This document shows, one piece after another, positions 19,941 through 38,519 of a DNA stretch of 60,647 nucleotides; within the stretch, counting starts at the first letter, position 1; every line of letters begins with the position of its first letter. Source of the DNA: Erysipelotrichaceae bacterium (lineage in GTDB: Bacteria; Bacillota_I; Bacilli_A; Erysipelotrichales; Erysipelotrichaceae); assembly GCA_017404205.1 (NCBI GenBank), contig JAFRCV010000011.1:1-60647 (forward strand), given 5' to 3'. The position numbers and the translations under genes were made by a program. The notes beneath the pieces are model-generated. The model had not been told where the DNA came from, made no database searches, and saw only the letters and a program-made list of their open reading frames with translations.

Positions 19941-20270
19941 ATGATTAAAAAATATCGCATTAAAAAAAATGAAGAATTTTCTAAAATAATCGCTTATAAA
20001 AAATCAATTGCAAGCGATTGTTTTGTTGTTTACTGTAAACCTAAAAATGAAAATTATTCAAGAATAGGAATATCAGTATCTAAGAAATTAGGAAATGCGG
20101 TAATAAGAAATAAAATAAAAAGACAAATTAGAATGATGATAGCTAATTTTTATGATTTTGATAATAGCGATAAAGACTTTATTATCATTGCACGTAAGAA
20201 TTATCTAGATAAAAGCTTTAAAGATAATATGTGCGATTTGGAAAAGCTTATCAAAAGTTCTATAATATAA
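19941..20270 (+). CDS. rnpA: Ribonuclease P protein component
   Basis: A 109-aa basic protein that assists the RNase P RNA in 5' maturation of tRNAs. The RNR signature RIGISVSKKLGNAVIRNKIK is at about residues 44-63. I chose the start MIKKYRIKK at 19941, which aligns with family N-termini, rather than an upstream ATG inside the preceding hairpin. It lies between rpmH and yidC, the usual order. Confidence 0.95.
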   Translation: MIKKYRIKKNEEFSKIIAYKKSIASDCFVVYCKPKNENYSRIGISVSKKLGNAVIRNKIKRQIRMMIANFYDFDNSDKDFIIIARKNYLDKSFKDNMCDLEKLIKSSII

Positions 20271-20290
20271 CAGAATAGCAAGGAGTTATT

Positions 20291-21130
20291 ATGAATAAAA
20301 AACGTCTTACATTATTAGTAACAATTATAAGCTTGCTGGTAATAATGAGTGGCTGTAGCACAAGCTCTGAACTAATACATTTAGATACACCAATTAACGA
20401 TGTATTTAATGATGGAATATTTGCAGTCATCCTTACTTATCCACTTGCTCAAGCAATCAACTTTTTAAGCCAATATACTGGCGTATTCTTTGCTGTAGCA
20501 ATCGTAACAATCGCTTTGAATGCTATTATTATTGCATTGACTTTTAAATCTAATATGTCGATGCAAAGAATGCAAGAATTACAACCTGAAGTTCAAAAGA
20601 TCCAAATGAAATATGAAGGACGCAATGACCAAGCATCTCAACAAAAGATGTCATATGAACTTCAAAATCTTTATCAAAAGAACAACATTAATCCATTAGG
20701 TTCACTTGTAACAACATTCATTCAATTCCCAGTATTAATTTCAATGTATGCTGCTGTTAGAAGATCTGCTGCTGTTGCTGAAGGAACATTCCTTGGACAA
20801 TCTTTGGCACTTACACCTAGTCAAGCATTCACAGAGAAACAATGGATAATTGTTGCTATCTATGTTGTCATGATTATTATGCAGTTTATTTCTACTTCAA
20901 TTACCCGCTGGTTACAAATTTATCGTGGTAAACAAGAAGCTGAAAGAAAACATAAAGCATATGAAAAACCAAAGAATCAAAACGGCATGATGTTATATGG
21001 AATGATAGTCTTCATTGCATTCATTATGCTACAATGGCCAGCTGCATTATCACTTTACTATTGTATCTATTCATTAGTAAACATCGCAAAAGTAGTTATT
21101 ATTGATCAATTAATGCAAAAGGAAAAATAG
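20291..21130 (+). CDS. yidC: Membrane protein insertase YidC/OxaA
   Basis: A 279-aa Gram-positive-type YidC with a lipoprotein signal (lipobox LVIMSGC, Cys near residue 22) and about five membrane segments. NPLGSLVTTFIQFPVLISMY and LQWPAALSLYYCIYSLVNIAK are family motifs. The protein inserts small membrane proteins, with or without Sec. AAGGAG precedes the ATG. jag follows at 8 bases, and the two are commonly co-expressed. Confidence 0.95.
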   Translation: MNKKRLTLLVTIISLLVIMSGCSTSSELIHLDTPINDVFNDGIFAVILTYPLAQAINFLSQYTGVFFAVAIVTIALNAIIIALTFKSNMSMQRMQELQPEVQKIQMKYEGRNDQASQQKMSYELQNLYQKNNINPLGSLVTTFIQFPVLISMYAAVRRSAAVAEGTFLGQSLALTPSQAFTEKQWIIVAIYVVMIIMQFISTSITRWLQIYRGKQEAERKHKAYEKPKNQNGMMLYGMIVFIAFIMLQWPAALSLYYCIYSLVNIAKVVIIDQLMQKEK

Positions 21131-21138
21131 GAGTTATT

Positions 21139-21771
21139 ATGAAACAATATACAGGAAAAACAGTTGATGAAGTTTTAGATAATATTTCATCTGAACAAAA
21201 TTGTGCAAAAGAAGACATAGTTTATAACGTTATTGAAGAAAAGAAACATTTATTGGGAATAGGCAATACAGTAACTATTGAAGCATTTACACCAAATGAT
21301 GTAAAAGAATTCATTTTTGATTATTTAGGTGCTTATTTCACTGAATTAAATCAAGGTGTTGCAATTGAAATTATTATTGAAAAGACTAAAGATAATAATG
21401 ATAATTTATATCGTGTTATTTTAGATGCTGAAAACAATGCAATTATTATTGGAAAAAATGGTCAAACATTAAGAGCTATTTCTATTGTTTTAAAAGCAGC
21501 TGCTAATGCAACATTTAAAAAACGTATTAATATCATAATTGATGTTAATCATTATAAAGAAGATCGTTATAAAAAGGTAAAGGGCATCGCTAATCGTGTG
21601 GCAAGAGAAGTTGTAAAAACACATATCGATGCTGAACTTGATCCAATGCCAAATGATGAAAGGAAAGTCATCCACCAATATCTACAAGATTTTAAGGGTG
21701 TAAGTACTGTATCAATTGGTGAAGGTCCAAAAAGACATCTAGTAATTAAATACACAGGTAATGAAGAATAG
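21139..21771 (+). CDS. jag: RNA-binding protein Jag/KhpB
   Basis: A 210-aa protein with the three expected parts: a Jag-N domain (residues about 1-50, KQYTGKTVDEVLDNIS), a KH domain with NAIIIGKNGQTLRAI (GxxG loop, near residue 100), and a C-terminal R3H domain (NDERKVIHQYLQDFKGVSTVSIGEGPKRH). KhpB partners with KhpA to bind RNA and affects cell division and envelope growth. It ends the rpmH cluster at a strong terminator. Confidence 0.94.
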   Translation: MKQYTGKTVDEVLDNISSEQNCAKEDIVYNVIEEKKHLLGIGNTVTIEAFTPNDVKEFIFDYLGAYFTELNQGVAIEIIIEKTKDNNDNLYRVILDAENNAIIIGKNGQTLRAISIVLKAAANATFKKRINIIIDVNHYKEDRYKKVKGIANRVAREVVKTHIDAELDPMPNDERKVIHQYLQDFKGVSTVSIGEGPKRHLVIKYTGNEE

Positions 21772-21800
21772 AAGATTTGTCAATATGACAAATCTTTTTT
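21772..21800 (+). terminator. Intrinsic terminator after jag; copy A of a duplicated element
   Basis: A 10-bp stem AGATTTGTCA/TGACAAATCT with loop ATA and a T run. The same 29 bases recur at 23303-23331. The pair bounds the three-gene cassette between them. Confidence 0.88.
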
Positions 21801-21814
21801 AATAACACAACATG

Positions 21815-21849
21815 TTGACAAACTCTGTCGGGGGGGGGGGTAATATTAT
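21815..21849 (+). promoter_or_regulatory. Promoter-like element with an 11-G run in the spacer (copy 1)
   Basis: A perfect -35 TTGACA (21815-21820) is followed by AACTCTGTC, then 11 consecutive Gs (21830-21840), then TAATAT/TATTAT (from 21841). The spacer to the first hexamer is 20 bases, longer than the 17 optimum. The same TTGACAAACTCTGTC plus 11 Gs recurs at 36926. A homopolymer between -35 and -10 can change length by slippage and so alter promoter strength. GACA/TGTC also forms a small dyad that could be an operator. Confidence 0.72.
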
Positions 21850-21876
21850 CTTATATATTTAAAGGAGAGAATTTTT

Positions 21877-22134
21877 ATGGCAATAGCTTCATTAGTTTTA
21901 GGCATTTTAGCGATTATACTTTCGCTAACTGGTGCCGGTGGTATTTTTGCAGTTATTTTAGGTATTATTGGAATTATTTTAGGTGCTTTAGGAAGAAAAG
22001 ATCCCGAAAGGAAAGGTATGGCAACTGCTGGCTTGGTAATGTCAATAATCAGTGTTGTTCTTGGCGTACTTCTTTTTGTTGCTTGTGCAGGTGTGCTAGG
22101 CGCAGCAGGTGTACTTGCTTCATCTGGCTATTAA
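21877..22134 (+). CDS. Small DUF4190-type membrane protein
   Basis: An 85-aa protein with two hydrophobic helices (about residues 3-38 and 50-82) rich in Gly, Ala, Ile and Leu, and the connecting loop GRKDPERKGMATAGL. This is the DUF4190 pattern of small two-helix membrane proteins. Function is unknown. AAAGGAGA precedes the ATG. It is the first gene behind the G-run promoter and is followed after 3 bases by the Lgt-like gene, so all three genes of the cassette are probably co-transcribed. Confidence 0.85.
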   Translation: MAIASLVLGILAIILSLTGAGGIFAVILGIIGIILGALGRKDPERKGMATAGLVMSIISVVLGVLLFVACAGVLGAAGVLASSGY

Positions 22135-22137
22135 TTA

Positions 22138-22917
22138 ATGAATCCATATATCCACTTGTTCAGTATTCACATTCCTAGTTATGGCTTGCTAGCGTTAGTT
22201 TCTTTAATGGTACTATCTGCATATGGAATTATTAAAGCTAAACAAAATGATTTAAGCATTGATGATTTTCTGATATTAGAAAGTATTGCATTATTAGGAG
22301 CATTAATAGGCTCTAAATTATTGTTTGTTACTTTGAATTTTAATAAGATCCAACTAGCATTATCATCAAATCTCATTACGGTGAATGATTTACTAACAAG
22401 TGGTTTTATTTTCTATGGGGGATTGATAGGAGCGCTATTGTTCCTATATTTATTTAATAAGAAATTCCTTAAAGTTGATTTAAAAAGATACTTAAATATA
22501 GTAATTCCAATCATTCCTTTATGCCATGGCATAGCTAGGATTGGGTGCTATTTAAGTGGTTGCTGTTATGGAATTGCATATGATGGAATTGGAAGCGTTG
22601 TGTTTCCTGAAAACTCTTTAGCACCTTCTGGAATTCATCTTTTTCCAGTACAACTTCTTGAAGCGTTTTTATTGTTTGTTCTTTCAATATGCTTATTTAT
22701 ATTTGAGAAAAGAAAAAGCAATCATTTATTAACAAGCTACTTAGTTTTTTATGGAATTATGAGATTCTTTTTGGAATTCTTAAGAGGAGACAAATTAGAA
22801 AAAGTATATTTGTTCTCATTGTCCGAATCACAAATTATTTCATTAATGATAATTTTGTTTCCGGTTTTATATTTATTATTAGGGAGAAAAAATGGAAAAG
22901 GAAAAAGTTATTCATAG
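22138..22917 (+). CDS. Prolipoprotein diacylglyceryl transferase-like membrane protein (second Lgt paralogue)
   Basis: A 259-aa protein with about seven membrane segments and Lgt-family features: SYGLLALVSLM near the start, GFIFYGGLIGALLF, and a C-terminal YGIMRFFLEFLRGD. The canonical Lgt signature GR-x-GNF-x-N-x-E is replaced by ARIGCYLSGCCYG (about residues 132-144), so substrate or activity may differ from true Lgt. The bona fide Lgt of this organism is the fused gene at 32978. It belongs to the small cassette behind the G-run promoter. Confidence 0.85.
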   Translation: MNPYIHLFSIHIPSYGLLALVSLMVLSAYGIIKAKQNDLSIDDFLILESIALLGALIGSKLLFVTLNFNKIQLALSSNLITVNDLLTSGFIFYGGLIGALLFLYLFNKKFLKVDLKRYLNIVIPIIPLCHGIARIGCYLSGCCYGIAYDGIGSVVFPENSLAPSGIHLFPVQLLEAFLLFVLSICLFIFEKRKSNHLLTSYLVFYGIMRFFLEFLRGDKLEKVYLFSLSESQIISLMIILFPVLYLLLGRKNGKGKSYS

Positions 22918-23167
22918 TTTATTAGGAGAAGATGGAAAGCTTACTGATAAAGATTTTAAAGATGCGCTTGATAGAATTAAAGAATCTGAAGAAATGAAAG
23001 ATATTCTTGGCGAAGATGGAAAATTGACAGACAAAGATTTTGAAAGATTTGCTGACAAAATAAAAGAATCTGACTTTGGAAAAAAACTATTAGGTGATGA
23101 TGGAAAATTCACAGATGATGATTTAAAGCGTATTAAGGACAAAATTAAATCAGTTTTCAATAAATAG
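22892..23167 (+). CDS. Small acidic/basic repeat protein with three EF-hand-like degenerate repeats
   Basis: A 91-aa soluble protein consisting almost wholly of three repeats, each of the form L-L-G-[ED]-D-G-K-[LF]-T-D-x-D followed by a charged helix. The DGKLTDKD core resembles an EF-hand loop (D-G-x-I-x-x-x-E), but the first two acidic ligands are absent, so calcium binding is doubtful. It overlaps the Lgt-like gene by 26 bases and has its own AGGGAG site. Function is unknown; co-expression suggests work at the membrane. Confidence 0.8.
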   Translation: MEKEKVIHSLLGEDGKLTDKDFKDALDRIKESEEMKDILGEDGKLTDKDFERFADKIKESDFGKKLLGDDGKFTDDDLKRIKDKIKSVFNK

Positions 23168-23190
23168 TTTATTTTATAAAACTAAAGGGT

Positions 23191-23297
23191 CTCTAAATTC
23201 TAGCGTGTGAAAACGTGTGTTGAATTAGAGAATTGCCAAAAGCTATAAATTCTAGCGTGGGATTTATAGAAACAAACACACGCCAGAATTTATAGGG
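23191..23297 (+). repeat. Three-copy motif able to form alternative hairpins
   Basis: TAAATTCTAGCGTG occurs in direct orientation in 23191-23209 and 23243-23259, and inverted in 23277-23295. Copy 2 and the inverted copy form a 17-bp stem with one mismatch. Copy 1 could instead pair with the inverted copy, or fold on a nearer partial repeat at 23214-23230. Since the inverted copy can pair with only one at a time and a terminator follows at 23303, the region looks like a structured RNA or attenuator. Confidence 0.6.
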
Positions 23298-23302
23298 CCT
23301 AA

Positions 23303-23332
23303 AAGATTTGTCAATATGACAAATCTTTTTTT
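23303..23332 (+). terminator. Intrinsic terminator; copy B of the duplicated element
   Basis: The same 10-bp stem, ATA loop and T run as at 21772-21800. It ends the cassette that began behind copy A. Confidence 0.88.
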
Positions 23333-23589
23333 ATGGCATAACATTAATTCGTTAACTTCTAAAAGTACAATACAGCCTAGCAAAATTATTAATGAAATAT
23401 AATTTATAAATCAAAGAAGAAAGGATTTTAAGCAATAAAATCTTAAATAATTAAATAAAATTGGTTAATAGCATATGAAAATCTACTAAATCCATTAAAA
23501 ACTAAAAAAACGGACATAATGCTCGGAAAAAACATAAAAATCAGTACAAAATGTACGAAAATGATATAATTATGGTGGAGAAAGTAGAA
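23333..23589. other. AT-rich intergenic region upstream of the AAA ATPase
   Basis: No gene or RNA is recognisable in 23333-23540. Near its end, GTACAAAATGTAC (23544-23556) is a small perfect dyad. TATAAT at 23565-23570 is a good -10 without a convincing -35. A TSS near 23577 would leave a very short leader for the ATG at 23590. Confidence 0.5.
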
Positions 23590-24885
23590 ATGTATAGAAA
23601 AATATTGGAAGAATTAAATAAGTGGCTTCGAGATTATAAAAAGCCTTTAATGCTAATAGGCGCAAGACAAACTGGAAAAACATATATTCTTAATGAATTC
23701 TGTAAGAATAACTTTTCTGATTATTTTTATTTTAATTTGGAGAAAGAAACAGAAATCGCAAAAGTATTTGAAGAAACTCTTGATCCAAAAAGAATTATCG
23801 AAAGTATTGAATTAATAAAAAACATTAACATTGATTTAAACGATTCAATCATTTTCTTTGATGAAATACAAGTTAGTGAAAGAGCCATCACTTCATTAAA
23901 GTATTTTTGTGAAAGTGATGAAAAATATAAGATTATTTGTGCCGGATCTTTATTGGGCGTAAAAATAAACAGATTTAAGTCTTCTTTTCCCGTTGGCAAA
24001 GTAAATATTAAGTATTTATATCCTATGGACTTCGAAGAGTTTTTGATGGCGCTTAATGAAAACAAGCTTATAGAAGAAATAAAAAAACATTACGAAAGTA
24101 ATGAAGCGCTTCTTGATGCAATTCATAATAAAGCACTTGATTTATATAAAAAATATTTATGCTTAGGTGGGATGCCTTCTGTGATAAACGATTTCATTTC
24201 TAAAGATTATGATATTGCTCATGTTGATTTTGAAATTCAAGATCAAATTATCACCTCATATTTAGCTGATATGAACAAATACACCGTAAATAGTGAAGGA
24301 ATAAAAAATAGCAAAATCTATCACGCCATTCCAAGATCATTAGCTAGAGAGAATAATATTTTTAAGTTTTCAATTGTTGAAGAAAATGCTAGAAAAAATA
24401 GATATGAAAGCAGTTTAGATTGGTTGCTAGCAAGCAACATGATTTGTAAGTGCAATCTAGCTGATAAGAATGAATCGCCATTAAAAGCCTATGAGAATCA
24501 AGACAAATTTAAATTATATTTAAATGATGTTGGATTATTGAGGTCATTAGCGAACATCGATATTAAAGAGATATTGTTAGATAAAAATGAGATGTATAAG
24601 GGTGTATTAACAGAAAACTATGTTGCTAACGAGTTGAATATTAAATATAGAGAATTATATTTTTATTTATTTGAAAAATATGAAATAGATTTTCTTGTAA
24701 AAATTGATGGACGTATTCTTCCTGTTGAAGTTAAGAGTGGGAAAAATACTTCAAGTAAAAGTTTTAAAAAATATATCGAAAAATATAATCCAGATTACGG
24801 GATTAGAATATCAATGAAAAACTTTGGTTTTGAAAACAGAATCAAATCAGTACCTCTATATGCATTATTTTGTTTAGAAAAATAA
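23590..24885 (+). CDS. AAA_14/DUF4143 ATP-binding protein
   Basis: A 431-aa ATPase of the AAA_14-DUF4143 type. The P-loop GARQTGKT is near residues 25-32, Walker B is DSIIFFDEIQ and sensor I is IICAGSLLG. The C-terminal DUF4143 part has the nuclease-like segment EIDFLVKIDGRILPVEVKSGK, a PD-(D/E)XK-type pattern. Such proteins are widespread in gut Bacillota and may act in defence or DNA metabolism; the role is unproven. The frame opens at 23551, but GGAG 9 bases before 23590 and a -10 in between favour MYRKILEELNKW as the start. Confidence 0.9.
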   Translation: MYRKILEELNKWLRDYKKPLMLIGARQTGKTYILNEFCKNNFSDYFYFNLEKETEIAKVFEETLDPKRIIESIELIKNINIDLNDSIIFFDEIQVSERAITSLKYFCESDEKYKIICAGSLLGVKINRFKSSFPVGKVNIKYLYPMDFEEFLMALNENKLIEEIKKHYESNEALLDAIHNKALDLYKKYLCLGGMPSVINDFISKDYDIAHVDFEIQDQIITSYLADMNKYTVNSEGIKNSKIYHAIPRSLARENNIFKFSIVEENARKNRYESSLDWLLASNMICKCNLADKNESPLKAYENQDKFKLYLNDVGLLRSLANIDIKEILLDKNEMYKGVLTENYVANELNIKYRELYFYLFEKYEIDFLVKIDGRILPVEVKSGKNTSSKSFKKYIEKYNPDYGIRISMKNFGFENRIKSVPLYALFCLEK

Positions 24886-24912
24886 AGAACAAGCTCGTTT
24901 ATTAATATTTAA

Positions 24913-25701
24913 TTATTTCTCAATAAACATAATATTTAAATCAACTTCTTTTTCTATGCCTGGAACTTCCCCACTATCACTATATTGCCATATAAAGAAT
25001 GGGTATTTACAATCGGGCTTATCATAATATTGGGCGTACCATAATTTGTATTCTTTTAATAATTCCATATCATAATAGTCATTCAATAATACACCATTGG
25101 CATATAAAGCTACATCATCATATTCTTCTTTAATGGTTTTGAAAAAGGCAATAGCGTTTTTGGTGCATTGTTCCTTAGTGATTTCATCACTTCTGGCCTC
25201 ATCATGGTCTATGTTTTCAAAATCGTAAACAATTGGCAAATCAAGTTGCCTTCCATGTAGTATATTTAACAGATATTTTGCTTCTTCTATTGCTTCTTCT
25301 TCATTGATAGCTTGCGAAAATAAATATACGCCAACTAACAAGTCGTTTTCTTTGGCATTTGTATAATTGATATTGAAATAGCTATCTGTATGTAGATAAC
25401 CTTCAGAATAGCCACGCCATGCAGCACGCATATAGACAAAATCAATGCCACTTAATTTAACTGCTTTAAAATCAATAATATGATTATGCTCAGAAACGTC
25501 TATGCCAGCAATGCTTGTATAATTTTGATCTTCATATGATAAATAATCTTTTCGATGTATTAAATCATAATTATAAATATCATCACTTTCTTCAATTGTT
25601 CCATGATCAACTCTTTTAGTATTAATCACTATTAAAACAATTATTAATAAAATGATAAATGGCAAAAATAATAGATATTTAAGAAATCTTTTTTTCATCA
25701 A
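24913..25701 (-). CDS. Membrane-anchored GH25 lysozyme
   Basis: A 262-aa protein with a basic start, one membrane helix (about residues 10-27) and a GH25 muramidase domain from about residue 64. IAGIDVSEHNHIIDF carries the first catalytic Asp, and LPIVYDFENIDHDEA carries the DxE pair. WYAQYYDKPDC and FIWQYSDSGEVPGIEKEVDLN are also family motifs. It should cut the glycan backbone of peptidoglycan outside the membrane. It overlaps the end of the upstream gene by 23 bases, so the two are probably co-transcribed. Confidence 0.94.
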   Translation of the reverse strand: MMKKRFLKYLLFLPFIILLIIVLIVINTKRVDHGTIEESDDIYNYDLIHRKDYLSYEDQNYTSIAGIDVSEHNHIIDFKAVKLSGIDFVYMRAAWRGYSEGYLHTDSYFNINYTNAKENDLLVGVYLFSQAINEEEAIEEAKYLLNILHGRQLDLPIVYDFENIDHDEARSDEITKEQCTKNAIAFFKTIKEEYDDVALYANGVLLNDYYDMELLKEYKLWYAQYYDKPDCKYPFFIWQYSDSGEVPGIEKEVDLNIMFIEK

Positions 25702-26143
25702 ATTTTAATTCAATTTTATTGGCAATTTCTTCAAGCTTTACTTGTGCATCTAAATTACTTAAACGATACTCTTTATCATCATGAGTGTAAAAATCAAAGA
25801 TGACATCAGCTTCATGAGTATAATATTCCAACAACTCTTTCATATATGTTGAAGTTTGAAAATAATTCTTTGTTCCATACAATTCAAAAACAGTAATGAA
25901 TCTTTCTTGGTTGGTTTTGCTGCCATCAAAATCATAAATAACTGTTTTGTTGATGTCTTTTAAATAATCTTTTATTTCAGGATCAGAAAACAAGTAACGG
26001 ATGAAACCGTAATTATCTTCTTTAAATAAAGAAACAACTGAAACTTTAATATATAAAACGACATCTAAAGGTAAAGATGCCATATCTTCTTCATTTGGTT
26101 TAAAATCAATCATTTGTCTTAAAGACATTTCTTTATATAACAT
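25679..26143 (-). CDS. Conserved protein of unknown function
   Basis: A 154-aa soluble, acidic protein without signal peptide or membrane segment. Mixed alpha/beta composition is suggested by PLDVVLYIKVSVV and KTVIYDFDG. No family motif is recognised. It lies 7 bases downstream of feoB on the same strand, and its end overlaps the lysozyme gene. The frame is long, has sensible codon use and fits the operon, so it is likely real. Confidence 0.65.
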   Translation of the reverse strand: MLYKEMSLRQMIDFKPNEEDMASLPLDVVLYIKVSVVSLFKEDNYGFIRYLFSDPEIKDYLKDINKTVIYDFDGSKTNQERFITVFELYGTKNYFQTSTYMKELLEYYTHEADVIFDFYTHDDKEYRLSNLDAQVKLEEIANKIELKFDEKKIS

Positions 26144-26150
26144 AGAATAA

Positions 26151-28490
26151 TTATATTATAAAATTCAAAATTGAATATAATAGGAAACTGCAAATCCAAG
26201 CTACTACGCATTGTAAGATAACAACATTAATTGCCCACTTTAATCCCAATTCTCTTTTTATAGATGCTATAGCGGCAACGCAAGGTGTATATAATAAACA
26301 GAAAACTAATAATGATAATGCAGCCGATGTGTTCAGTGTAGCTTGTAGGTTTGAAATGGAACCATACAATAAGGACAATGTTGAAACAACTGATTCTTTA
26401 GCTAAGAAACCTGTTATAAGAGCTGTCACACTTTGCCAATTGCCAAAGCCACATGGTTTAAATAATGGTGCCAATATTCCAGCAATATTTGCTAGTATTG
26501 ATTCTTCAGGATTAGTCACCATTGTTAGACCAAATGAGAATCTTTGTAAGAACCATATTATGATTGTGGCAAGAAAGATAATTGTAAAGGCTCTTTGTAA
26601 GAAATCTTTAGCTTTTTCCCATAATAAGTGTCCAACATTTTTTGGATTTGGGAGTCGATAATTTGGCAATTCCATTACAAAAGGAACAGCTTCTCCTTTA
26701 AATAGTGTATTTTTAAATATTAAGGCAATTAGTATTGCCACAATTATTCCTAGAACATATAAACCAATCATAACTAGTGCTTTGTGTTTAGGGAAGAAAG
26801 CATCACAAAGGAAAGCATAGATTGGAAGTTTTGCGCTACATGACATAAAGGGTGTCAAAAGAATTGTCATTTTTCTATCTCTTTGCGATGGCATAGTTCT
26901 TGCTGACATTACAGCAGGAACACTACAGCCAAAGCCAATAAGCATTGGTACGATACTTCTACCAGATAAGCCAATCTTTCTTAATAATTTATCCATAAAG
27001 AAGGCAACTCTAGCCATATAGCCGCTATCTTCAAGTATTGATAAAAAGAAAAACAACACAACAACAATCGGAATAAAACTTAATACTGAACCTACACCGC
27101 CAAATATACCTTCGATTATTAAAGATCTTAAGACAACTGATACATTAGTCTTGATTAATAATTCTTCAGTCAATGTTCCAAGTGCTGTAATGCCTTGTTC
27201 TAATAGATCTTGTAAGAAACCACCAATTACTTCAAATGTTAAAAAGAAGACAAGACCCATAATAGCGATAAATACTGGAAGAGCTGTCCACTTGCCAGTA
27301 AGTATCTTATCTATCTTACTAGAACGTATGCTTTCTTTGCTTTCGTTTGGTTTTACTACTGTATCAATGGTAGCTTTTTTGATAAAGCTATAGCGCATAT
27401 CAGCAATCGCTGCGGCTTTATCTAATTTAGATTCATTTTCCATTTGGCTTACTAAATGTTCTAATGTTTCTTTTTCATTTTGATCTAGATCAAGTTTATC
27501 AATAATTAGCCTATCGCCTTCAGCACATTTAGTGGCACAAAAGCGAAGCGGCAAATCATATTTTTGACAATGATCTTCAATGATGGACATAATGGCATGT
27601 AAACATCTATGAATAGCACCACCTCTTTCAGAATCATTACAATAATCTTGTTTGATTGGCTTTTCTTGATATTTAGCAACATGAATGGCGTGCTCAATTA
27701 ATTCATCCACACCTTGATTCTTACTTGCGGAAATAGGTACAACCGGAATTCCTAAATATGATTCAAGACCATTGATATCAATATAACCATTATTGTTTTC
27801 AATCTCATCCATCATATTTAAAGCTAACACCATAGGAATATCCATTTCCAAAAGCTGCATTGTTAAATATAAACCTCTTTCAATTGATGTTGCGTCAATA
27901 ATATTGATTATGCCTTTTGGTTTTTCATCTAATACAAAATTTCTTGAGATTAATTCTTCATTTGTATATGGCGACATCGAATAGATTCCTGGCAAGTCAA
28001 CAACTAATGTATTTGGATGATTTTTAATAACACCATCTTTTCTATCAACAGTAACACCAGGGAAATTTCCTACATGCTGATTAGAACCTGTCAATTGATT
28101 AAATAAGGTTGTTTTGCCGGCGTTTTGTTGTCCAACAAGCGCAAATGTTAAAACAGTATCGTCACTAAGCGGCTTTTCTGTTTTCTTATCGTGAAATTTT
28201 CCATATTCGCCAAGTCCTGGGTGATCGGTATTTCTTTTTATATTTCTGTTTTCTATTTTTTCTTCATAATCTTCGATTTCAATTTGAGCGGCATCATCTT
28301 TTCTTAATGTTAAAGAATAGCCGTTGATTTGAAATTCAATTGGATCACCCATTGGAGCATATTTTATTAATTTGATATGGGCATCAGGAATAAGTCCCAT
28401 ATCTAATAAATGTTGTCTAGTTGCGCCTTCACCATTAATTTTTAAAATAGTTGCGCTTTTTGAAATTTCTAACTCATTTAATGTTTTCAT
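26151..28490 (-). CDS. feoB: FeoA-FeoB fusion, ferrous iron transporter
   Basis: A 779-aa protein. Residues about 1-75 are a FeoA SH3-like domain (LLDMGLIPDAHIKLIKYAPMG, INGYSLTLRKDDA). A G domain then has P-loop GQQNAGKTT (residues 120-128), switch region NFPGVTVDRK, DLPGIYSM and NMMD. The C-terminal half has the FeoB membrane core with GFGCSVPAVMSARTM and CSAKLPIY gates. It imports Fe2+. FeoA and FeoB are normally separate proteins, and here they are joined through a linker of about 45 residues. No FeoC or Fur box is recognised. Confidence 0.95.
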   Translation of the reverse strand: MKTLNELEISKSATILKINGEGATRQHLLDMGLIPDAHIKLIKYAPMGDPIEFQINGYSLTLRKDDAAQIEIEDYEEKIENRNIKRNTDHPGLGEYGKFHDKKTEKPLSDDTVLTFALVGQQNAGKTTLFNQLTGSNQHVGNFPGVTVDRKDGVIKNHPNTLVVDLPGIYSMSPYTNEELISRNFVLDEKPKGIINIIDATSIERGLYLTMQLLEMDIPMVLALNMMDEIENNNGYIDINGLESYLGIPVVPISASKNQGVDELIEHAIHVAKYQEKPIKQDYCNDSERGGAIHRCLHAIMSIIEDHCQKYDLPLRFCATKCAEGDRLIIDKLDLDQNEKETLEHLVSQMENESKLDKAAAIADMRYSFIKKATIDTVVKPNESKESIRSSKIDKILTGKWTALPVFIAIMGLVFFLTFEVIGGFLQDLLEQGITALGTLTEELLIKTNVSVVLRSLIIEGIFGGVGSVLSFIPIVVVLFFFLSILEDSGYMARVAFFMDKLLRKIGLSGRSIVPMLIGFGCSVPAVMSARTMPSQRDRKMTILLTPFMSCSAKLPIYAFLCDAFFPKHKALVMIGLYVLGIIVAILIALIFKNTLFKGEAVPFVMELPNYRLPNPKNVGHLLWEKAKDFLQRAFTIIFLATIIIWFLQRFSFGLTMVTNPEESILANIAGILAPLFKPCGFGNWQSVTALITGFLAKESVVSTLSLLYGSISNLQATLNTSAALSLLVFCLLYTPCVAAIASIKRELGLKWAINVVILQCVVAWICSFLLYSILNFII

Positions 28491-28498
28491 AATACCGC

Positions 28499-29173
28499 CT
28501 ATATATTTTCTATTTGCCAGTCTATTTCTTTTAGATTATTCTTTTTTAAAAAACTATTTGTCTTTGAGAATGGCTTAGAACCAAAAAAGCCATTATAAGC
28601 ACTAAGTGGTGAAGGGTGAGCTGATTCAATAATTAAATGCTTAGGATTATTTATTAGGTTTTTCTTATTTCTAGCATTTCTTCCCCATAGTATAAAGACA
28701 ACAGGAACATCTTTATTATTTAAAGACGCTATTATTTTATCAGTTAATATTTCCCAACCTTTCCCAGAATGTGAATTGGCTTTATGTTGTTCAACGGTTA
28801 AAACAGTGTTTAATAATAGGACACCTTGCGATGCCCATTTTATTAAATATCCATTATTTGGTATATAGCAATTTAAATCATTTTTTAATTCTTTATAAAT
28901 GTTTTCTAAAGATGGTGGAATTTTAACTCCTTTGTTTACAGAAAAAGATAACCCATGAGCTTGATTTTCTTCATGATAGGGGTCTTGTCCAAGTATCACA
29001 ACCTTTACATCTTTATAAGGTGTTAATCTTAGTGCACTATAAATATTTTTAGCTAAGGGATAGATGGTTTTACTTTTATATTCTTCATCTAAAAAAGATC
29101 TGAGTTTTAGGTAATAATCTTTCTCAAATTCTTTTTCTAATATTTGATCCCAATCGTTGCCAATGAGCTTCAT
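28499..29173 (-). CDS. ung: Uracil-DNA glycosylase
   Basis: A 224-aa family 1 UDG that removes uracil from DNA. The water-activating motif GQDPYH is at about residues 61-66, with LLNTVLTVE in the middle. The DNA-intercalating loop [17 protein letters not shown] is complete at about 186-202. Length is normal. It diverges from uvrA with only 39 bases between starts, so the two repair genes may share control. Confidence 0.97.
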
Positions 29174-29212
29174 AAGTATATTTTAGACTAAAAAAAGAGT
29201 AAAATAAATTAC

Positions 29213-32047
29213 ATGGAAAATAATGAAATTATTATAAAGGGAGCACGTGTCAATAATCTGAAAAATATTGACATAACTATTCCTCGCAATAAATTAGTAG
29301 TCATGACTGGATTATCTGGTTCGGGCAAGACTTCTTTGGCGTTTGATACTATCTATGCAGAAGGCCAAAGAAGATATATTGAATCTTTAAGTTCTTATGC
29401 TAGACAGTTTTTAGGTGGCATTGAAAAGCCTGATGTTGATTTAATTGAAGGATTATCACCTTCAATTGCGATAGACCAAAAAACTACCAGCAACAATCCA
29501 CGTTCTACAGTTGGTACAATAACAGAAATATATGATTATTTAAGGCTTTTATATGCCAGATGTGGAATAGCTTATTGTCCAAATCACAATGAGCCAATTG
29601 AAGCTATGACTGTACCTACAATGGTAAAAAAAGTATTGTCTTATCCTACAAATAGTCGTATAGAAATTTTAGCTAATGCAGTCATTGATAAAAAGGGCAG
29701 CTTTAAAGATTATTTTGAAAATTTAAAGAAAGATGGTTTTTTAAGATTATATGTTGATGGCGAAAATAGAACATTAGATGAAGAAATAAATCTTGATAAG
29801 AATAAAAGACATAATATTGATATTGTCATCGATAGAATAGTTGTAAAAGAAGGAATCGAAACACGTTTAACAGATTCTATTGAATTGGCTTTAAAAATGG
29901 CAGATGGAACTTGTGTAATTAAAAATGGTGAGGAAAAAGAATTGTTGTCAAGCCATTTTGCCTGTCCAAAATGTGGTTTTACAATTCCTCGTCTTGAGCC
30001 AAGACTTTTCTCATTTAATTCACCGCTTGGAGCTTGTCCAAATTGTAAAGGGTTAGGTGTAACGCTAGAGGTTGATTTAGATTATTTAATGCCTGATAAA
30101 TCACTAAGCATAAGAGATGGTGGCATTCGTTTTTATAAAAACATTGTCGATACGCCTAATATTGAATGGCAAAATTTTTCTGCTTTATTAAAACATTATA
30201 AAATTTCTATCGATAAGCCATTAAACAAGATGTCTAAAAAAGAAATGGATATTATTTTATATGGTTCAAATGAACCAATTAAATATGAAATACATTCAGC
30301 CGGTGGAACTAAATATTCTAAGAATACTTATATTGAGGGTGTAAAAACACTAATTGAAAGAAGATATGAAGAAACCACAAGCCGTCTATCTAAAGAATGG
30401 TATTACTCTTATATGAGTGAATCAGTATGCGAAAAATGTCATGGTGCCAGACTTTCTGAACAAGTTTTAGCAGTTAGAGTTGGTGGCAAAAACATTTATG
30501 AATTTACCAAGATGTCGATTGTCGAAGCATATGACTTTGTGGAGAATTTAAAGCTTACAAAGTCTCAACAAGAAATAGCTAAAATACTATTAGAAGAATT
30601 GAAATCACGATTGAAATTCTTATTGGATGTTGGTCTTGAATATTTGACACTTGATAGAATGGCAGGAAGTTTGTCTGGTGGTGAAGCTCAAAGAATTAGG
30701 TTAGCTACACAGATCGGTTCAGCTTTGACAGGAGTTTTATATGTATTAGATGAACCTTCAATAGGCTTGCATCAAAAAGATAATGCTAAATTAATCAAAA
30801 CTCTAAAAAGAATGCGTGATTTAGGCAATACAGTAATTGTTGTTGAACATGATGAAGAAACAATGATGGAAAGTGATTATATTGCCGATATTGGCCCTGG
30901 TGCTGGGAAGGATGGCGGAAATGTTGTCTTTTTTGGAACACCAGAAGAAATATTAAAATGCGATAAATCAATTACCGGTCAATATCTAAGCGGTAAGAAA
31001 GTTATACCTATCCCAAGTTCAAGAAGAAAGGGAACTGGCAAATCAATTAAAATTATTGGTGCCAAAGAACATAATTTAAAGAATATTGATGTTGAATTTC
31101 CACTAGGCAAGCTAATATGTGTAACGGGTGTTTCTGGAAGTGGCAAATCAACACTGGTCAATGACATCTTAGCTAATGGTGTAATGAAGAATTTAAATCG
31201 TGTGCGAATTAAAACTGGCAAACATGATCGCATTGTCGGTTTAAACAATATTGATAAGATTGTATCTATAGATCAAGATCCAATTGGTAGAACTCCAAGA
31301 AGTAATCCTGCTACTTATACTGGTGTTTTTGATGATATTAGAGATGTTTTTGCCAATTGTCCAGATGCTAAAGAAAGAGGCTACAATAAAAGTCGTTTCT
31401 CTTTTAATGTTCCTGGAGGAAGATGTGAAGCATGTGACGGCGATGGTGTTAAAAGAATATCAATGTTATTTGTTCCTGATGTTTATGTTGAATGTGAAGA
31501 GTGTGGTGGTAAACGCTACAATAAAGAAACACTAGAAGTCAAATATCGCGATAAAAGTATTTATGATATTTTAAAGATGAATGTCAAAGAAGCTTTGGAA
31601 TTCTTTAAGAATCACACAAAGATTAAAGATAAAATTCAAACTTTATATGATGTTGGTTTAGGTTATATTGAGCTTGGTCAAAGTGCTACAACTTTATCTG
31701 GTGGTGAAGCCCAAAGAGTAAAACTCGCAAGTGAACTTCAAAAGAAAGCTACAGGCAAAACATTATTTATTCTTGATGAACCAACAACAGGCTTGCATAG
31801 TGAAGATGTTTCTAAATTAATTAAAATACTAAATCGTATTGTCGAAAATGGCGATACTGTAGTTGTAATTGAACATAATTTAGATGTTATTAAATGTGCA
31901 GACTGGATAATTGATTTAGGACCAGATGGTGGAGAAAATGGTGGAACTATTGTTGGTGTTGGTACACCTGAAGATATAGTTAAGAATAAAGATAGTTATA
32001 CTGGACAATATTTAAAGAAGGTATTGAAGAATGTTAGAACTAAATAA
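29213..32047 (+). CDS. uvrA: Excinuclease ABC subunit A
   Basis: A 944-aa nucleotide-excision-repair damage sensor. Two ABC modules are present: Walker A GLSGSGKTS near residue 34 and GVSGSGKST near residue 643. Signature LSGGEAQR occurs twice, and Walker B LDEPS/LDEPT twice. Zinc modules CPKCGF ... CPNCKG and CEACDGDGV ... CEECGG are intact. Full length for the family. No uvrB is in the window. hprK starts inside its last codons (17-base overlap), so the two are translated together. Confidence 0.98.
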   Translation: MENNEIIIKGARVNNLKNIDITIPRNKLVVMTGLSGSGKTSLAFDTIYAEGQRRYIESLSSYARQFLGGIEKPDVDLIEGLSPSIAIDQKTTSNNPRSTVGTITEIYDYLRLLYARCGIAYCPNHNEPIEAMTVPTMVKKVLSYPTNSRIEILANAVIDKKGSFKDYFENLKKDGFLRLYVDGENRTLDEEINLDKNKRHNIDIVIDRIVVKEGIETRLTDSIELALKMADGTCVIKNGEEKELLSSHFACPKCGFTIPRLEPRLFSFNSPLGACPNCKGLGVTLEVDLDYLMPDKSLSIRDGGIRFYKNIVDTPNIEWQNFSALLKHYKISIDKPLNKMSKKEMDIILYGSNEPIKYEIHSAGGTKYSKNTYIEGVKTLIERRYEETTSRLSKEWYYSYMSESVCEKCHGARLSEQVLAVRVGGKNIYEFTKMSIVEAYDFVENLKLTKSQQEIAKILLEELKSRLKFLLDVGLEYLTLDRMAGSLSGGEAQRIRLATQIGSALTGVLYVLDEPSIGLHQKDNAKLIKTLKRMRDLGNTVIVVEHDEETMMESDYIADIGPGAGKDGGNVVFFGTPEEILKCDKSITGQYLSGKKVIPIPSSRRKGTGKSIKIIGAKEHNLKNIDVEFPLGKLICVTGVSGSGKSTLVNDILANGVMKNLNRVRIKTGKHDRIVGLNNIDKIVSIDQDPIGRTPRSNPATYTGVFDDIRDVFANCPDAKERGYNKSRFSFNVPGGRCEACDGDGVKRISMLFVPDVYVECEECGGKRYNKETLEVKYRDKSIYDILKMNVKEALEFFKNHTKIKDKIQTLYDVGLGYIELGQSATTLSGGEAQRVKLASELQKKATGKTLFILDEPTTGLHSEDVSKLIKILNRIVENGDTVVVIEHNLDVIKCADWIIDLGPDGGENGGTIVGVGTPEDIVKNKDSYTGQYLKKVLKNVRTK

Positions 32048-32972
32048 ACAAGTAAGCGTAAGAAAAATTAAAGAAGCCTTTAATCTTATACAGGTGTGTG
32101 GAGATGATTCATCTTTGGATAGATGGACTATTGCACCCGATATTAATAGGCCTGGTCTAGAACTTTCTGGCTATCGTGAAGAATCAGAATTAAAGAGAAT
32201 TGTTGTCATTGGTAAAAAGGAACATACATATTTAGATACCTTAGATTATTTTACCCAAAGAGATCGTTTTGGATTCTTAACCGATAGTTATACACCTTGT
32301 ATAATCATTACAGCTGGAAGAAAGACGCCACCTGCTTTAATGGATGTCGCAAGAGAAAAGAATTTCCCTGTATTTGAATATGAGGGAGAGACTTATCGTT
32401 TTACAAGTGATTTGACAGCTTTTTTATCTAAACATTTAGCACCAAGTGAATATGTCAATGGTGGATTAATGAGCATTTATGGCGTTGGTGTTGCCATCAT
32501 GGGAAAAAGTGGAATTGGTAAATCAGAATTACAATTAGACTTAATTAAAAGAGGACATATTTTTGTTGCTGATGACATTATTGATGTTTCTAAAATAAAT
32601 AATGAACTTTTTGGGCAAGCTCCAGATAATTTAAAAAGAATGCTTGAAGTAAGAGGACTTGGAGTAATAGATGTATGCACAATGTTTGGTGGATATTGTT
32701 ATCTTCAATCATGCCCAATTGAGATGATTGTTAAATTAATTAAATATGAAGATTATCAAAAATCTAATCCTGATCGTTTAAATCCACTAGAAAACTCAAT
32801 AGATATTCTAGGTGTTAATAAGCCAATTATTGAAATACCTATAACTGAAGGTAAATTAGTATCAACAATTATTGAAACAGCTGTATCAAAACATATTGTT
32901 TCTAAACAAGGAATCGATACTAATGAAGAATTTAAACAACGTATATACGATGAAATAAAAAATAAGAGGTAA
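32031..32972 (+). CDS. hprK: HPr kinase/phosphorylase
   Basis: A 313-aa bifunctional enzyme that phosphorylates HPr on Ser46 with ATP or PPi and removes that phosphate by phosphorolysis, giving PPi. The P-loop GKSGIGKSE is at about residues 157-165, followed by the HPrK signature segment LEVRGLGVIDV (about 203-213). It belongs to uvrA-hprK-lgt::ppaX. The PPi it generates would be removed by the phosphatase domain of the next gene. Its presence implies CcpA-type carbon control. Confidence 0.96.
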   Translation: MLELNKQVSVRKIKEAFNLIQVCGDDSSLDRWTIAPDINRPGLELSGYREESELKRIVVIGKKEHTYLDTLDYFTQRDRFGFLTDSYTPCIIITAGRKTPPALMDVAREKNFPVFEYEGETYRFTSDLTAFLSKHLAPSEYVNGGLMSIYGVGVAIMGKSGIGKSELQLDLIKRGHIFVADDIIDVSKINNELFGQAPDNLKRMLEVRGLGVIDVCTMFGGYCYLQSCPIEMIVKLIKYEDYQKSNPDRLNPLENSIDILGVNKPIIEIPITEGKLVSTIIETAVSKHIVSKQGIDTNEEFKQRIYDEIKNKR

Positions 32973-32977
32973 ACAAG

Positions 32978-34438
32978 ATGAGTTTTTTTCCAAATAGAAC
33001 AACTTTTTTACAAATCGGTCCCATATCAATACAATGGTATGCGATATTGATTATTACTGGCGCTTTTATCGCCTATTATTTCGCAAAAAGAAATCTTAAA
33101 TCATATCGTAATATTGATGTTGATGATTTCTTTGATGATTCTTTCTTATGCTTATTATGGGGAGGAATTATTGGCGCAAGATTATGGTTTTGTTTATTCT
33201 ATAATTTTGATTATTATTTTTCTCATCCAATTGACATCATTAAAATATGGGATGGTGGATTAGCTTTTCATGGTGGTGCTGTTGGTGGCGTATTAGCGAC
33301 TTTCTTTTTATGTAAAAAAAGAAATGTATCATTTATTAAATATCTAGATGCAATTGCACCAACCGTATTAATTGGTCAAGCCGTTGGCAGATGGGGCAAT
33401 TTTATCAACCAAGAATGCCATGGTAGTGCAGTTACAGCTGATTATTTCAAAGGCCCTTTAGCTTTAATTAGAGATGGCATGCTGATAAATGGCGTGTACT
33501 ACAAACCATTATTCTTTTATGAATCGATGTTGTGCTTATTAGGATTTATTTTAATAAATTTCTTAGTTAGAAAATTTCAAAGTAGAAGAGGTGAAGCGCT
33601 TGGGGCTTATTTAATATGGTATGGAATTATTAGATTCTTTATTGAAGGAGATCGTACTGATTCATTATTAATTGGCTCATTAAAGACTGCACAAGTTACT
33701 TCAATTATCTTTGTTGTCGTTGGATTATTCTTTTATTTTGCTATACAAGAAAAAATATTTAAAAAGAAATTACCAACAATTGTTTTTGATTTAGATGGCA
33801 CTTTACAAGATTCAACTGGTCCAATTATTGAAAGTTTTAAAGCTGTTTTTGAAAAATACGGCAAATTAGAAGATTTTACTGCACAAAGACAAATGGAAGT
33901 ACTTGGCCCACCTTTAAAAGACATGATGTTAAAATATTTTCCAAATGAAAATCCTGATGAGTTAATAGAATTTTATCGTCAAATAAATAATGATGAATTA
34001 AGAAGAACTTTAAAACCAATTGAACATGCAGTTGAAGTTGTAAGTGAACTTAGAAAACAAGGCTACCGTTTAGCTATTTTAACTACAAGAGCTAGACCTT
34101 CAACAATAGAGTGTTTGAAGATTTGTGGTTTTAAAGATGATGACTTTGAAGGAATAATAACTTTGGATGATGTTAAGAATACAAAACCAGATCCTGAGGG
34201 CATTTTTAAAGTTATAAAAGAACATAAGATGAATAGCGCTGATGTGATTGTTGTAGGTGATAGTATCGCTGATGTTAAGGCTGGTAAAGCTTATGGCGCA
34301 TATACAGTTGCCTATACTGTTTTAGAAGGCAAAAAAGAAGGAATCGAAAAAGAAAAGCCTAATCGTTTCATTACTGATTTAAATGAAATATTAGGTATCG
34401 TTAACGAAAAACATTATTTTACTTACAATTTGAAATAA
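32978..34438 (+). CDS. lgt: Fusion of prolipoprotein diacylglyceryl transferase (Lgt) and a PpaX-like HAD phosphatase
   Basis: A 486-aa two-part protein. Residues 1 to about 262 are a complete Lgt with about seven membrane segments, the signature GRWGNFINQE (about 137-147) and YGIIRFFIEGDRTD; it adds diacylglycerol to prolipoprotein cysteines. From about residue 268 a HAD phosphatase follows: motif I VFDLDGTLQDS (near 271), motif II ILTTRARPS, and motif III/IV VVGDSIADVKAGKAYG. The HAD part is closest to PpaX/Gph-type enzymes. In Bacillus subtilis hprK, lgt and ppaX are neighbours in this order, so this looks like a fusion within a conserved operon. Confidence 0.95.
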   Translation: MSFFPNRTTFLQIGPISIQWYAILIITGAFIAYYFAKRNLKSYRNIDVDDFFDDSFLCLLWGGIIGARLWFCLFYNFDYYFSHPIDIIKIWDGGLAFHGGAVGGVLATFFLCKKRNVSFIKYLDAIAPTVLIGQAVGRWGNFINQECHGSAVTADYFKGPLALIRDGMLINGVYYKPLFFYESMLCLLGFILINFLVRKFQSRRGEALGAYLIWYGIIRFFIEGDRTDSLLIGSLKTAQVTSIIFVVVGLFFYFAIQEKIFKKKLPTIVFDLDGTLQDSTGPIIESFKAVFEKYGKLEDFTAQRQMEVLGPPLKDMMLKYFPNENPDELIEFYRQINNDELRRTLKPIEHAVEVVSELRKQGYRLAILTTRARPSTIECLKICGFKDDDFEGIITLDDVKNTKPDPEGIFKVIKEHKMNSADVIVVGDSIADVKAGKAYGAYTVAYTVLEGKKEGIEKEKPNRFITDLNEILGIVNEKHYFTYNLK

Positions 34439-34489
34439 TGGTTTAAGAAAAAACTTTCTTAGAAAATTGTCATTAAAGTATCACAAATT

Positions 34490-34515
34490 GAATGTGCCTA
34501 AGGGCACATTCTTTT
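34490..34515 (+). terminator. Intrinsic terminator after the lgt fusion
   Basis: A 9-bp stem GAATGTGCC/GGCACATTC with a 4-base loop and TTTT. A TATAAT at 34517-34522 just after it may be the upp -10, without a clear -35. Confidence 0.82.
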
Positions 34516-34548
34516 GTATAATAAATACAGAAAATTGGAGGATAACAT

Positions 34549-35166
34549 ATGTTAACAGTATTTAATCATCCACTTATTACTCATAAGCTTGCGCTAATGA
34601 GAGATAAAAACACAAGCACAAAGGATTTTGCTCAACAACTTGATGAAATTGCCGGCTTAATGGCATTTGAAGTTTCAAGAGATTTACCTACAAAAGAAAA
34701 ACGTGTAGAGACACCTATGGGACCATGTGTTACAGAAGAATTAGCTAGTGATGTTGTATTAGTTCCAATTTTAAGAGCAGGACTTGGCATGGTTGATGGA
34801 ATCAGAGATTTGATTCCTACAGCTAAAGTTGGCTTTATTGGCATGTTTAGAAACGAAAAGACTTTGCAACCTAAAGAATATTTCGCTAAATTTCCTGATA
34901 TGTCAAACGCAACAGTAATGGTATTAGACCCAATGCTTGCAACAGGTGGATCAGCGAGTGCTGCTTTAACTAAAATAAAAGAACGAGGAGCTAAAAATAT
35001 TAAACTTGTTTGTTTAGTTGGTGTTCCAGAAGGCGTTAAAAGAATTGAAGAAGACCATCCAGATGTTGATATTTATTTGGCTGCACTAGATGAGAAATTA
35101 AATGAAATTGGTTATATCGTTCCAGGTTTAGGTGATGCTGGCGATAGAATCTTTGGCACAAAATAA
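34549..35166 (+). CDS. upp: Uracil phosphoribosyltransferase
   Basis: A 205-aa salvage enzyme that makes UMP from uracil and PRPP. The PRPP loop [15 protein letters not shown] is at about residues 127-141, and [16 protein letters not shown] and [13 protein letters not shown] at the C-terminus bind uracil. Length is typical. A GGAGG site precedes the ATG and terminators flank it on both sides, so it is a single-gene unit. Confidence 0.97.
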
Positions 35167-35169
35167 AAA

Positions 35170-35192
35170 GAGGAACATTGTTCCCTTTTTTA
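35170..35192 (+). terminator. Intrinsic terminator after upp
   Basis: A short GC-containing stem GGAAC/GTTCC with loop ATT and a T6 run. Confidence 0.7.
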
Positions 35193-35214
35193 TGTTATAG
35201 AAAGAGGAAAATAT

Positions 35215-36780: not shown

Positions 36781-36786
36781 CATAAG

Positions 36787-36810
36787 AGGTGTCAAAAGAC
36801 ACCTTTTCTT
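36787..36810 (+). terminator. Intrinsic terminator after gpmI
   Basis: A 7-bp stem AGGTGTC/GACACCT with loop AAAA and TTTTCTTT. Confidence 0.85.
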
Positions 36811-36925
36811 TATAATAATCAACAAGAATTTTTCAACTTTAAATACTTGCTATAAGAATAAAGTACGATTAAAAACAATCGATAAATAGGCACTATTTTT
36901 TGCTATGCCAAGAACATTTGGATTC

Positions 36926-36957
36926 TTGACAAACTCTGTCGGGGGGGGGGGTATTAT
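36926..36957 (+). promoter_or_regulatory. Promoter-like element with an 11-G run in the spacer (copy 2)
   Basis: TTGACA at 36926-36931, AACTCTGTC, 11 Gs at 36941-36951, then TATTAT at 36952-36957: a 20-base spacer. The -35, the nine bases after it and the G count are identical to copy 1 at 21815, while upstream and downstream sequence differ. AAAGGA and an ATG follow within 35 bases. It would respond to the same factor or slippage as copy 1. Confidence 0.72.
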
Positions 36958-36987
36958 TTTCTTATAAAACGAAAGGAAATAATAATT

Positions 36988-37377
36988 ATGGCAACAGTAT
37001 CTAGTGGCATCGTGTTAGATGCAAATTTAATGAATTTAAAAGCAATCAGTTTAAATGAAGTTAGGAGCGAAGTTCCAACATTACTAGTAAATGGAGAAGA
37101 GATAGTTCAAGCTTTTCAAACCGTTAGAGACCAAGTTATTTTTACGAACAAGAGAGTTTTTGTTGTTAATGTTCAAGGCTTAGTAGGAAAGAAAATATCT
37201 TATTTTTCATACCCTTATTCAAAAGTGCAATATTATGGAATTGAAACAGCAGGCCTGCTAGATATCGATAGCGAGTTAATTCTAGCTTTTAGCAATGGAG
37301 CAAGATTGCAATTTGATTTCAAATCTAATGTTGATATAAAACAGATCAGCTCATTAATTTCACAATACATTATCTAA
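36988..37377 (+). CDS. Bacterial PH-domain-like protein
   Basis: A 129-aa soluble protein whose core, EEIVQAFQTVRDQVIFTNKRVFVVNVQGLVGKKISYFSYPYSKVQYYGIET, has the alternating strands and FTNKR turn of bacterial pleckstrin-homology (bPH) domains. A C-terminal helix DIKQISSLISQYI follows, as in those domains. Similar proteins often associate with membrane stress responses, but the ligand is unknown. It is a one-gene unit between the G-run promoter and a terminator at 37430. Confidence 0.85.
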   Translation: MATVSSGIVLDANLMNLKAISLNEVRSEVPTLLVNGEEIVQAFQTVRDQVIFTNKRVFVVNVQGLVGKKISYFSYPYSKVQYYGIETAGLLDIDSELILAFSNGARLQFDFKSNVDIKQISSLISQYII

Positions 37378-37429
37378 TTCTAATGATGTATTAAAGATTA
37401 TTTTGTATTTTTGAACCGTTTTTATAAAA

Positions 37430-37453
37430 AAATCTAGCAGATGCTAGATTTTT
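37430..37453. terminator. Bidirectional terminator between the PH-domain gene and the minus-strand pair
   Basis: A 10-bp stem AAATCTAGCA/TGCTAGATTT with a 2-base loop, an A-run on the left and a T-run on the right, suitable for both converging transcripts. Confidence 0.85.
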
Positions 37454-37463
37454 TATTAGTATT

Positions 37464-37841
37464 CTATGATTTTCTTAATTGTTTATTCTCTCTTATTAGT
37501 GATTGATATCTATATGCTTTATTAAATGATTTTCTTATAGAACGTTTAGAATATTTAGTATCTTTATAATCCTTAAAAGCGAATCTAATAACCTCATAAT
37601 AGAAGACAAAACGCATGAAGAAAGGAATAGATACTTGTGTAGTGTTATCAATAATTGCTTTCTTATTATTGAATGCTTCAATATTTTCGTTGATATTCTT
37701 AACTCCATCGCTTATAGGTTTAATGTTTTTGGATAATAATTTTATTTTTCCTAATATTCTAATAATTATCGCCAATAAAATAACTCCTAAAATAATATAG
37801 GCAATATAAGAATAATCACTAATTAATCTCAACATATTCAT
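37464..37841 (-). CDS. Small single-pass membrane protein of unknown function
   Basis: A 125-aa protein with one hydrophobic helix (about residues 12-31) and a long basic cytoplasmic-type tail (about 80 Lys/Arg/Tyr-rich residues, ending IRENKQLRKS). No known motif. It starts 4 bases after yigZ on the same strand, so it is likely co-transcribed. A charged helix after the membrane segment may form a short coiled coil. Confidence 0.65.
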   Translation of the reverse strand: MNMLRLISDYSYIAYIILGVILLAIIIRILGKIKLLSKNIKPISDGVKNINENIEAFNNKKAIIDNTTQVSIPFFMRFVFYYEVIRFAFKDYKDTKYSKRSIRKSFNKAYRYQSLIRENKQLRKS

Positions 37842-37845
37842 ATAT

Positions 37846-38442: not shown

Positions 38443-38519
38443 AGAATTATTATATATTTTTTAAAGTCCTTAATAAACTTATATAGTATAATTATGTAGT
38501 ATTAATTAAGGAGTAATTT

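Follow-up and report, generated by a model that had tools for sequence, protein, structure and literature searches.

The gene for a small DUF4190 membrane protein in the genome of an Erysipelotrichaceae bacterium is preceded by a promoter in which 11 consecutive guanines lie between the -35 and -10 hexamers, and we consider it very probable that this is a promoter-spacer contingency locus, at which slippage of the tract would cause phase variation. This reading is favoured because the same poly-G promoter recurs before four operons of the genome and before many surface-protein genes of related bacteria. We infer slippage in the living population, and its effect on transcription, from the architecture of the promoter, its repetition, its enrichment and the differences in tract length among copies. 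The window, that is, the whole stretch of DNA analysed (60,647 nucleotides, contig C8), is one of the 23 contigs of this 1.62-Mb genome (G000), which was searched by pattern.

Results

On the forward strand, TTGACA, nine further bases, 11 Gs and TAATAT follow one another at 21815-21846, the layout and the 20-nt spacer being those described in the first-pass annotation (Table 1). An alternative -10 hexamer, TATTAT, overlaps at 21844-21849, and TAATAT is followed by a ribosome-binding site and then by the DUF4190 gene. A promoter consensus scan restricted to spacers of 16-18 nt did not report this copy. The G run had also been called striking in AT-rich DNA, and the composition of the window bears this out: its G+C content is 30.8%, two of its G/C runs are exactly 11 long, all the remaining ones are 5 or shorter, and a first-order model predicts 0.0003 runs of at least 11 G/C per window and 0.007 per genome. 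For G8, the expectation obtained by shuffling is 0.07.

The DUF4190, Lgt-like and EF-like genes adjoin one another, and the first two encode membrane proteins. The names proposed for these two genes are upheld by their family matches, while the EF resemblance of the third product, whose degenerate repeats are spaced 28 codons apart, was seen by eye and has no EF-hand family match, nor does any other family score above its cut-off for this protein. A better LGT match sits at 33005-33739 of the window, and the switched Lgt-like gene is therefore an accessory paralogue. A search of the sister species G034 did not reveal the DUF4190 gene, and none of its close homologues turned up in the genus. 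The operon lies between two copies of a 45-nt direct repeat, which may mark its insertion, as if by terminator duplication. The region has no phage similarity, and the strict poly-G promoter pattern is absent from viral contigs. A comparison of positions 20000-38500 with Rfam gave no known RNA element; the stretch after the operon, at 23191-23295, carries direct and inverted repeats around CTCTAAATTCTAGCGTG and likewise has no Rfam match.

Table 1. Positions of the promoters, genes, repeats and G runs discussed in the text (window positions unless a contig is named).
Feature	Position	Strand	Basis or remark
45-nt direct repeat with terminator-like hairpin, left of operon	21769..21813	+	
-35 hexamer TTGACA, copy 1	21815..21820	+	sequence read directly; repeated in genome copies
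Conserved 9-nt block AACTCTGTC	21821..21829	+	RAYTCYGTC across 4 genomic copies
G11 tract in promoter spacer, proposed slippage site	21830..21840	+	
-10 hexamer TAATAT	21841..21846	+	spacer 20 nt
DUF4190 membrane protein gene, 85 aa, first of operon	21877..22134	+	PF13828, 36 bits (cut-off 35)
Second, divergent Lgt-like gene, 259 aa	22138..22917	+	PF01790, 127 bits
91-aa protein with three EF-loop-like degenerate repeats	22892..23167	+	by eye
Second copy of 45-nt repeat, right of operon	23300..23344	+	89%
Promoter copy 2, TTGACA-AACTCTGTC-G11-TATTAT	36926..36957	+	G run 36941-36951
bPH_1 gene, 129 aa, behind copy 2	36988..37377	+	PF08000, 127 bits
Third promoter, G10	C10:24117		before 319-aa protein, EcsC-like by eye
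Fourth promoter, G11	C18:16993	-	before RiPP-type operon
G9 run in ATP-grasp gene (L019)	G000:C11:70137-70145		in frame; TupA-like, PF14305; adjoins polysaccharide genes
G9 run in N6/N4 DNA methylase gene (L025)	G000:C23:25581-25589		in frame; PF01555
Exported-protein array (L152)	G574:C6:8000-27900		seven paralogues, six in a row at intervals of ~2 kb or less

The first-pass annotation had the switch acting on a single operon, a view that has to be widened: four operons of the genome carry the promoter, including one in the window that had been overlooked (copy 2). Their tracts are G11, G11, G10 and G11. When aligned, the four copies have in common TTGACARAYTCYGTC-Gn-TAWTATTWNCTTATA, about 40 bp in which the -10 hexamer reads TAWTAT and in which the nine pre-tract bases and a CTTATA 3' of the -10 are conserved. 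Searched alone with up to two mismatches, the left half of this module gave 18 further weak matches in the genome and no perfect half, the reversed control giving 15. The genes behind the other copies are varied. The bPH_1 protein looks cytoplasmic, and the 319-aa EcsC-like protein has no Pfam match; neither the PH-domain nor the EcsC-like protein is a classical surface antigen, which we count against the switch reading. The operon on C18 begins with a 39-aa Cys-containing peptide (…GCPSNYMGGTWCRQCDRAQ) without a family match, followed by a PqqD-like/radical SAM/SPASM maturase, and is a possible phase-variable RiPP candidate. Upstream of the -35, the motif RCACAACA occurs one to several times in copies 1 (21805-21817 of the window), 3 and 4 and is absent from copy 2, and copies 1 and 4 have CAACATGTTG palindromes; CACAACA was considered as a possible regulator site, and its frequency in the window is no higher than chance.

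Six G runs of at least 8 are present in the genome, four being the poly-G promoters and the other two, both G9, lying inside open reading frames. One of these genes encodes an ATP-grasp protein within a polysaccharide cluster and is a candidate for phase variation of the ORF type, and the other encodes a DNA methylase, also a candidate phase-variable gene, near a resolvase and a single-strand-binding-type protein. ATP-grasp enzymes and DNA methylases are typical functions among slippage-switched contingency genes, which suggests that this genome keeps its long G runs for contingency loci.

Beyond this genome, the pattern TTGACA-N-G7+-TANNNT was found at 28 distinct sites in 18 of 224 genomes of the family, against one site for the reversed pattern; two genomes with identical 3-kb loci (G005 and G011) were counted once. 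A sample of 394 genomes of the class, in a search that could admit only G7-G9, gave 46 sites in 22 genomes (control, 1), one of them within the family and 45 elsewhere, and a wider pattern applied to 195 genomes gave 13, including tracts of G10-G12 (control, 1). The phylum sample held the same class only, and these figures on spread apply within it. The families with the pattern are f1, f2, f8, f12, f17, f19 and f21, and the numerous small-genome members of f5 and f16 that were sampled lack it. Position 5 of the -10 hexamer, which the pattern left free, is an A in 25 of the 28 family sites and 43 of the 52 class sites, and 30 of the 52 have a perfect TATAAT. Spacers measure 13-21 nt in the family, mostly 17-20, and 15-20 nt in the class set, with a mode of 18. 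These features mark the sites as genuine promoters of the sigma-A type whose spacer holds the tract. In other genera the pre-tract bases are unrelated, and TTGACA, poly-G and a sigma-A-type -10 are kept. Of 30 G runs of at least 8 sampled from seven genomes chosen for having sites, an automatic rule placed 18 in such promoters, and several of the remaining runs resemble variants. Two loci of genome G361 (L164 and L177) show a variant layout, in which TTGACT adjoins a run of about G9, so that no bases separate the -35 from the Gs, and TAGTTATCGTATAATA comes next.

The first genes downstream include those for lipoproteins and for exported proteins that are adhesin-like or TasA/pilin-like by eye, and also LytR-CpsA-Psr, SIS-domain and ABC proteins. 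Signal-peptide-like N-termini were recognized in 26 of 40 first genes and in 5 of 28 neighbours (Fisher p = 2e-4), in a count that rests on a crude hydrophobicity rule, a small background set and paralogues that are not independent.

Tract length ranges from 7 to 12 among the sites. In the sister species, the PH-gene promoter matches over about 110 bp in everything but its tract, which is G10 instead of G11, and the 2.0-kb alignment of the locus as a whole is 90% identical. In G012, no G tract precedes the PH-domain orthologue (72% identical), which we count against the switch reading. The ABC-transporter promoters of two species from another genus share the same nine pre-tract bases, with G12 in one and G10 in the other. 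In a further genome, G574, seven tandem paralogues coding for exported proteins have near-identical poly-G promoters, in which the tract is G9 for six of the genes and G8 for the seventh; the proteins have C-termini in common (VPKTNDN, resembling a sortase motif by eye), and the array is a candidate for antigenic variation. Length differences among otherwise matching copies (G11/G10, G9/G8, G12/G10) are thus confined to the level of species and paralogues, and four of the five closest copies carry G10 or G11 only, a narrow range that we count against the switch reading. Across the family, the length of the pre-tract segment and that of the G run are not anticorrelated (r = -0.06), contrary to what a fixed total spacing would produce, and this too we count against the switch reading. 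The exact 20-mer was found in other species as the sister-species match, as a Ruminococcus site with G6 and then TATATT, and as two chance-like matches.

Discussion

In the mechanism that we favour, slipped-strand mispairing during replication would lengthen or shorten the G run. The two hexamers of a sigma-A-type promoter would thereby be moved apart or closer together, with consequences for RNA polymerase binding, so that transcription of the DUF4190/Lgt-like/EF-like operon would be reversibly raised or lowered. Since the module of about 40 bp also stands before the PH, EcsC-like and RiPP-type loci, these could flip independently and give rise to a mosaic population. The central proposal of the first-pass annotation, that a slippage-prone tract in the spacer would modulate a sigma-A-type promoter, draws strong comparative support from the recurrence of the layout in the genome and the class, from the reversed control, from the length differences between near-identical copies and from the mostly exported products of the genes behind it. 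With spacers of 19-20 nt, longer than the class mode of 18, the assembled promoters are probably weak, or perhaps OFF. Because the commonest spacers of related promoters measure 17-20 nt in the family and 18 nt elsewhere in the class, the ON spacing may be 17-19 nt, and tracts of G8 to G10 could be the ON state. The earlier estimate that three Gs would have to be lost presupposes the Escherichia coli optimum. In G-rich DNA the rise per base may be smaller, so that a different spacing could be optimal.

The conserved block and the G run could instead form a regulon operator or part of an alternative-sigma promoter, whose length would be functionally fixed and which would be bound by a dedicated sigma factor or by a regulator reading G-rich, A-form-like DNA in the style of the CsoR/RcnR-type repressors. 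The conservation of the nine pre-tract bases and CTTATA in four copies that head different operons is indeed what a regulon would look like, and some of the related genes (for example those for DUF4342 and SHOCT/PH proteins) have the look of stress genes. However, tract lengths span 7 to 12 and differ among near-identical copies, and other genera have unrelated pre-tract bases yet retain TTGACA, poly-G and a sigma-A-type -10. Operators of the CsoR/RcnR type have a G tract of fixed length near the promoter and a short dyad, of the form TACT-G6-N-AGTA, whereas the tract here is variable and no dyad lies beside it. We regard an operator as unlikely.

A passive role is also conceivable, in which the G run would be a structural or weakening element that keeps promoter strength constantly low by making the spacer stiffer or longer, and the differences in length between species would be neutral drift. 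Most copies near the window are G10-G11, as such a role would predict, and long homopolymers mutate anyway. But a weak promoter requires no mutable tract, and the tracts recur before exported proteins, with further G runs in the methylase and ATP-grasp genes. Moreover, G/C homopolymers longer than 5 are otherwise absent from the window, so the tracts must be kept by selection, and a passive element seems to us quite improbable. Although some sequencers are known to produce spurious poly-G calls, and the consensus length may be off by one or so, a false call from sequencing or assembly is refuted by the four copies in the genome and by the recurrence of the tract at the same position, with intact flanks, in assemblies of many other species, which leaves to it the exact length alone and next to no likelihood as an explanation.

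Promoter-tract phase variation, the reading that we prefer, is a mechanism of a known kind; the literature searched did not mention its spread through this lineage, and no report on poly-G promoters in Erysipelotrichaceae or on phase variation in Solobacterium was found in open-licence publications. On balance, we lean towards a lineage-wide, undescribed contingency system in Erysipelotrichaceae-like bacteria and several mostly uncultured families of the same class, in which exported-protein arrays, secreted peptides and envelope enzymes would be switched at random by a module that has been copied to unrelated operons, and which would rank among the main sources of surface diversity in gut bacteria that are not known to vary by phase. 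If so, multi-locus phase variation would extend to lineages known largely from metagenomes. The length of the G run in existing metagenomic reads would report the ON or OFF state, making it a countable switch for exported proteins, a possible secreted modified peptide and envelope enzymes of mostly uncultured bacteria. According to a 2025 review, multi-locus phase variation may seem restricted to pathogens in part because of bias in the databases (PMC11868660).

Among known systems, the poly-G contingency genes of Campylobacter and Neisseria, whose tracts lie in open reading frames, resemble the G runs in the ATP-grasp and DNA methylase genes of this genome; the promoter tract, in contrast, would act on transcription and not via frameshift. 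Closer in architecture are porA, fetA and opc of Neisseria meningitidis, where an unstable homopolymer separates the -10 from the -35 and is believed to affect how the sigma factor binds (PMC2791445), and here too a homopolymer lies between what can be recognized as a -35 and a -10. Those are, however, single genes in another phylum; the module described here, about 40 bp long and near-identical in its copies, stands before four operons that are unrelated to one another. Surface lipoproteins are switched by promoter slippage in Mycoplasma hyorhinis (vlp, poly-A) and M. mycoides (vmm, a dinucleotide repeat in the spacer) (PMC10502178). The seven-gene array of G574 resembles the vlp family in its layout, while poly-G is the tract here, the genera have larger genomes and the targets in the window are not a paralogous antigen family. 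The two architectural traits of promoters of the porA, fetA and vlp type, a tract between the hexamers and a length that differs among copies, are both present in the promoters described here.
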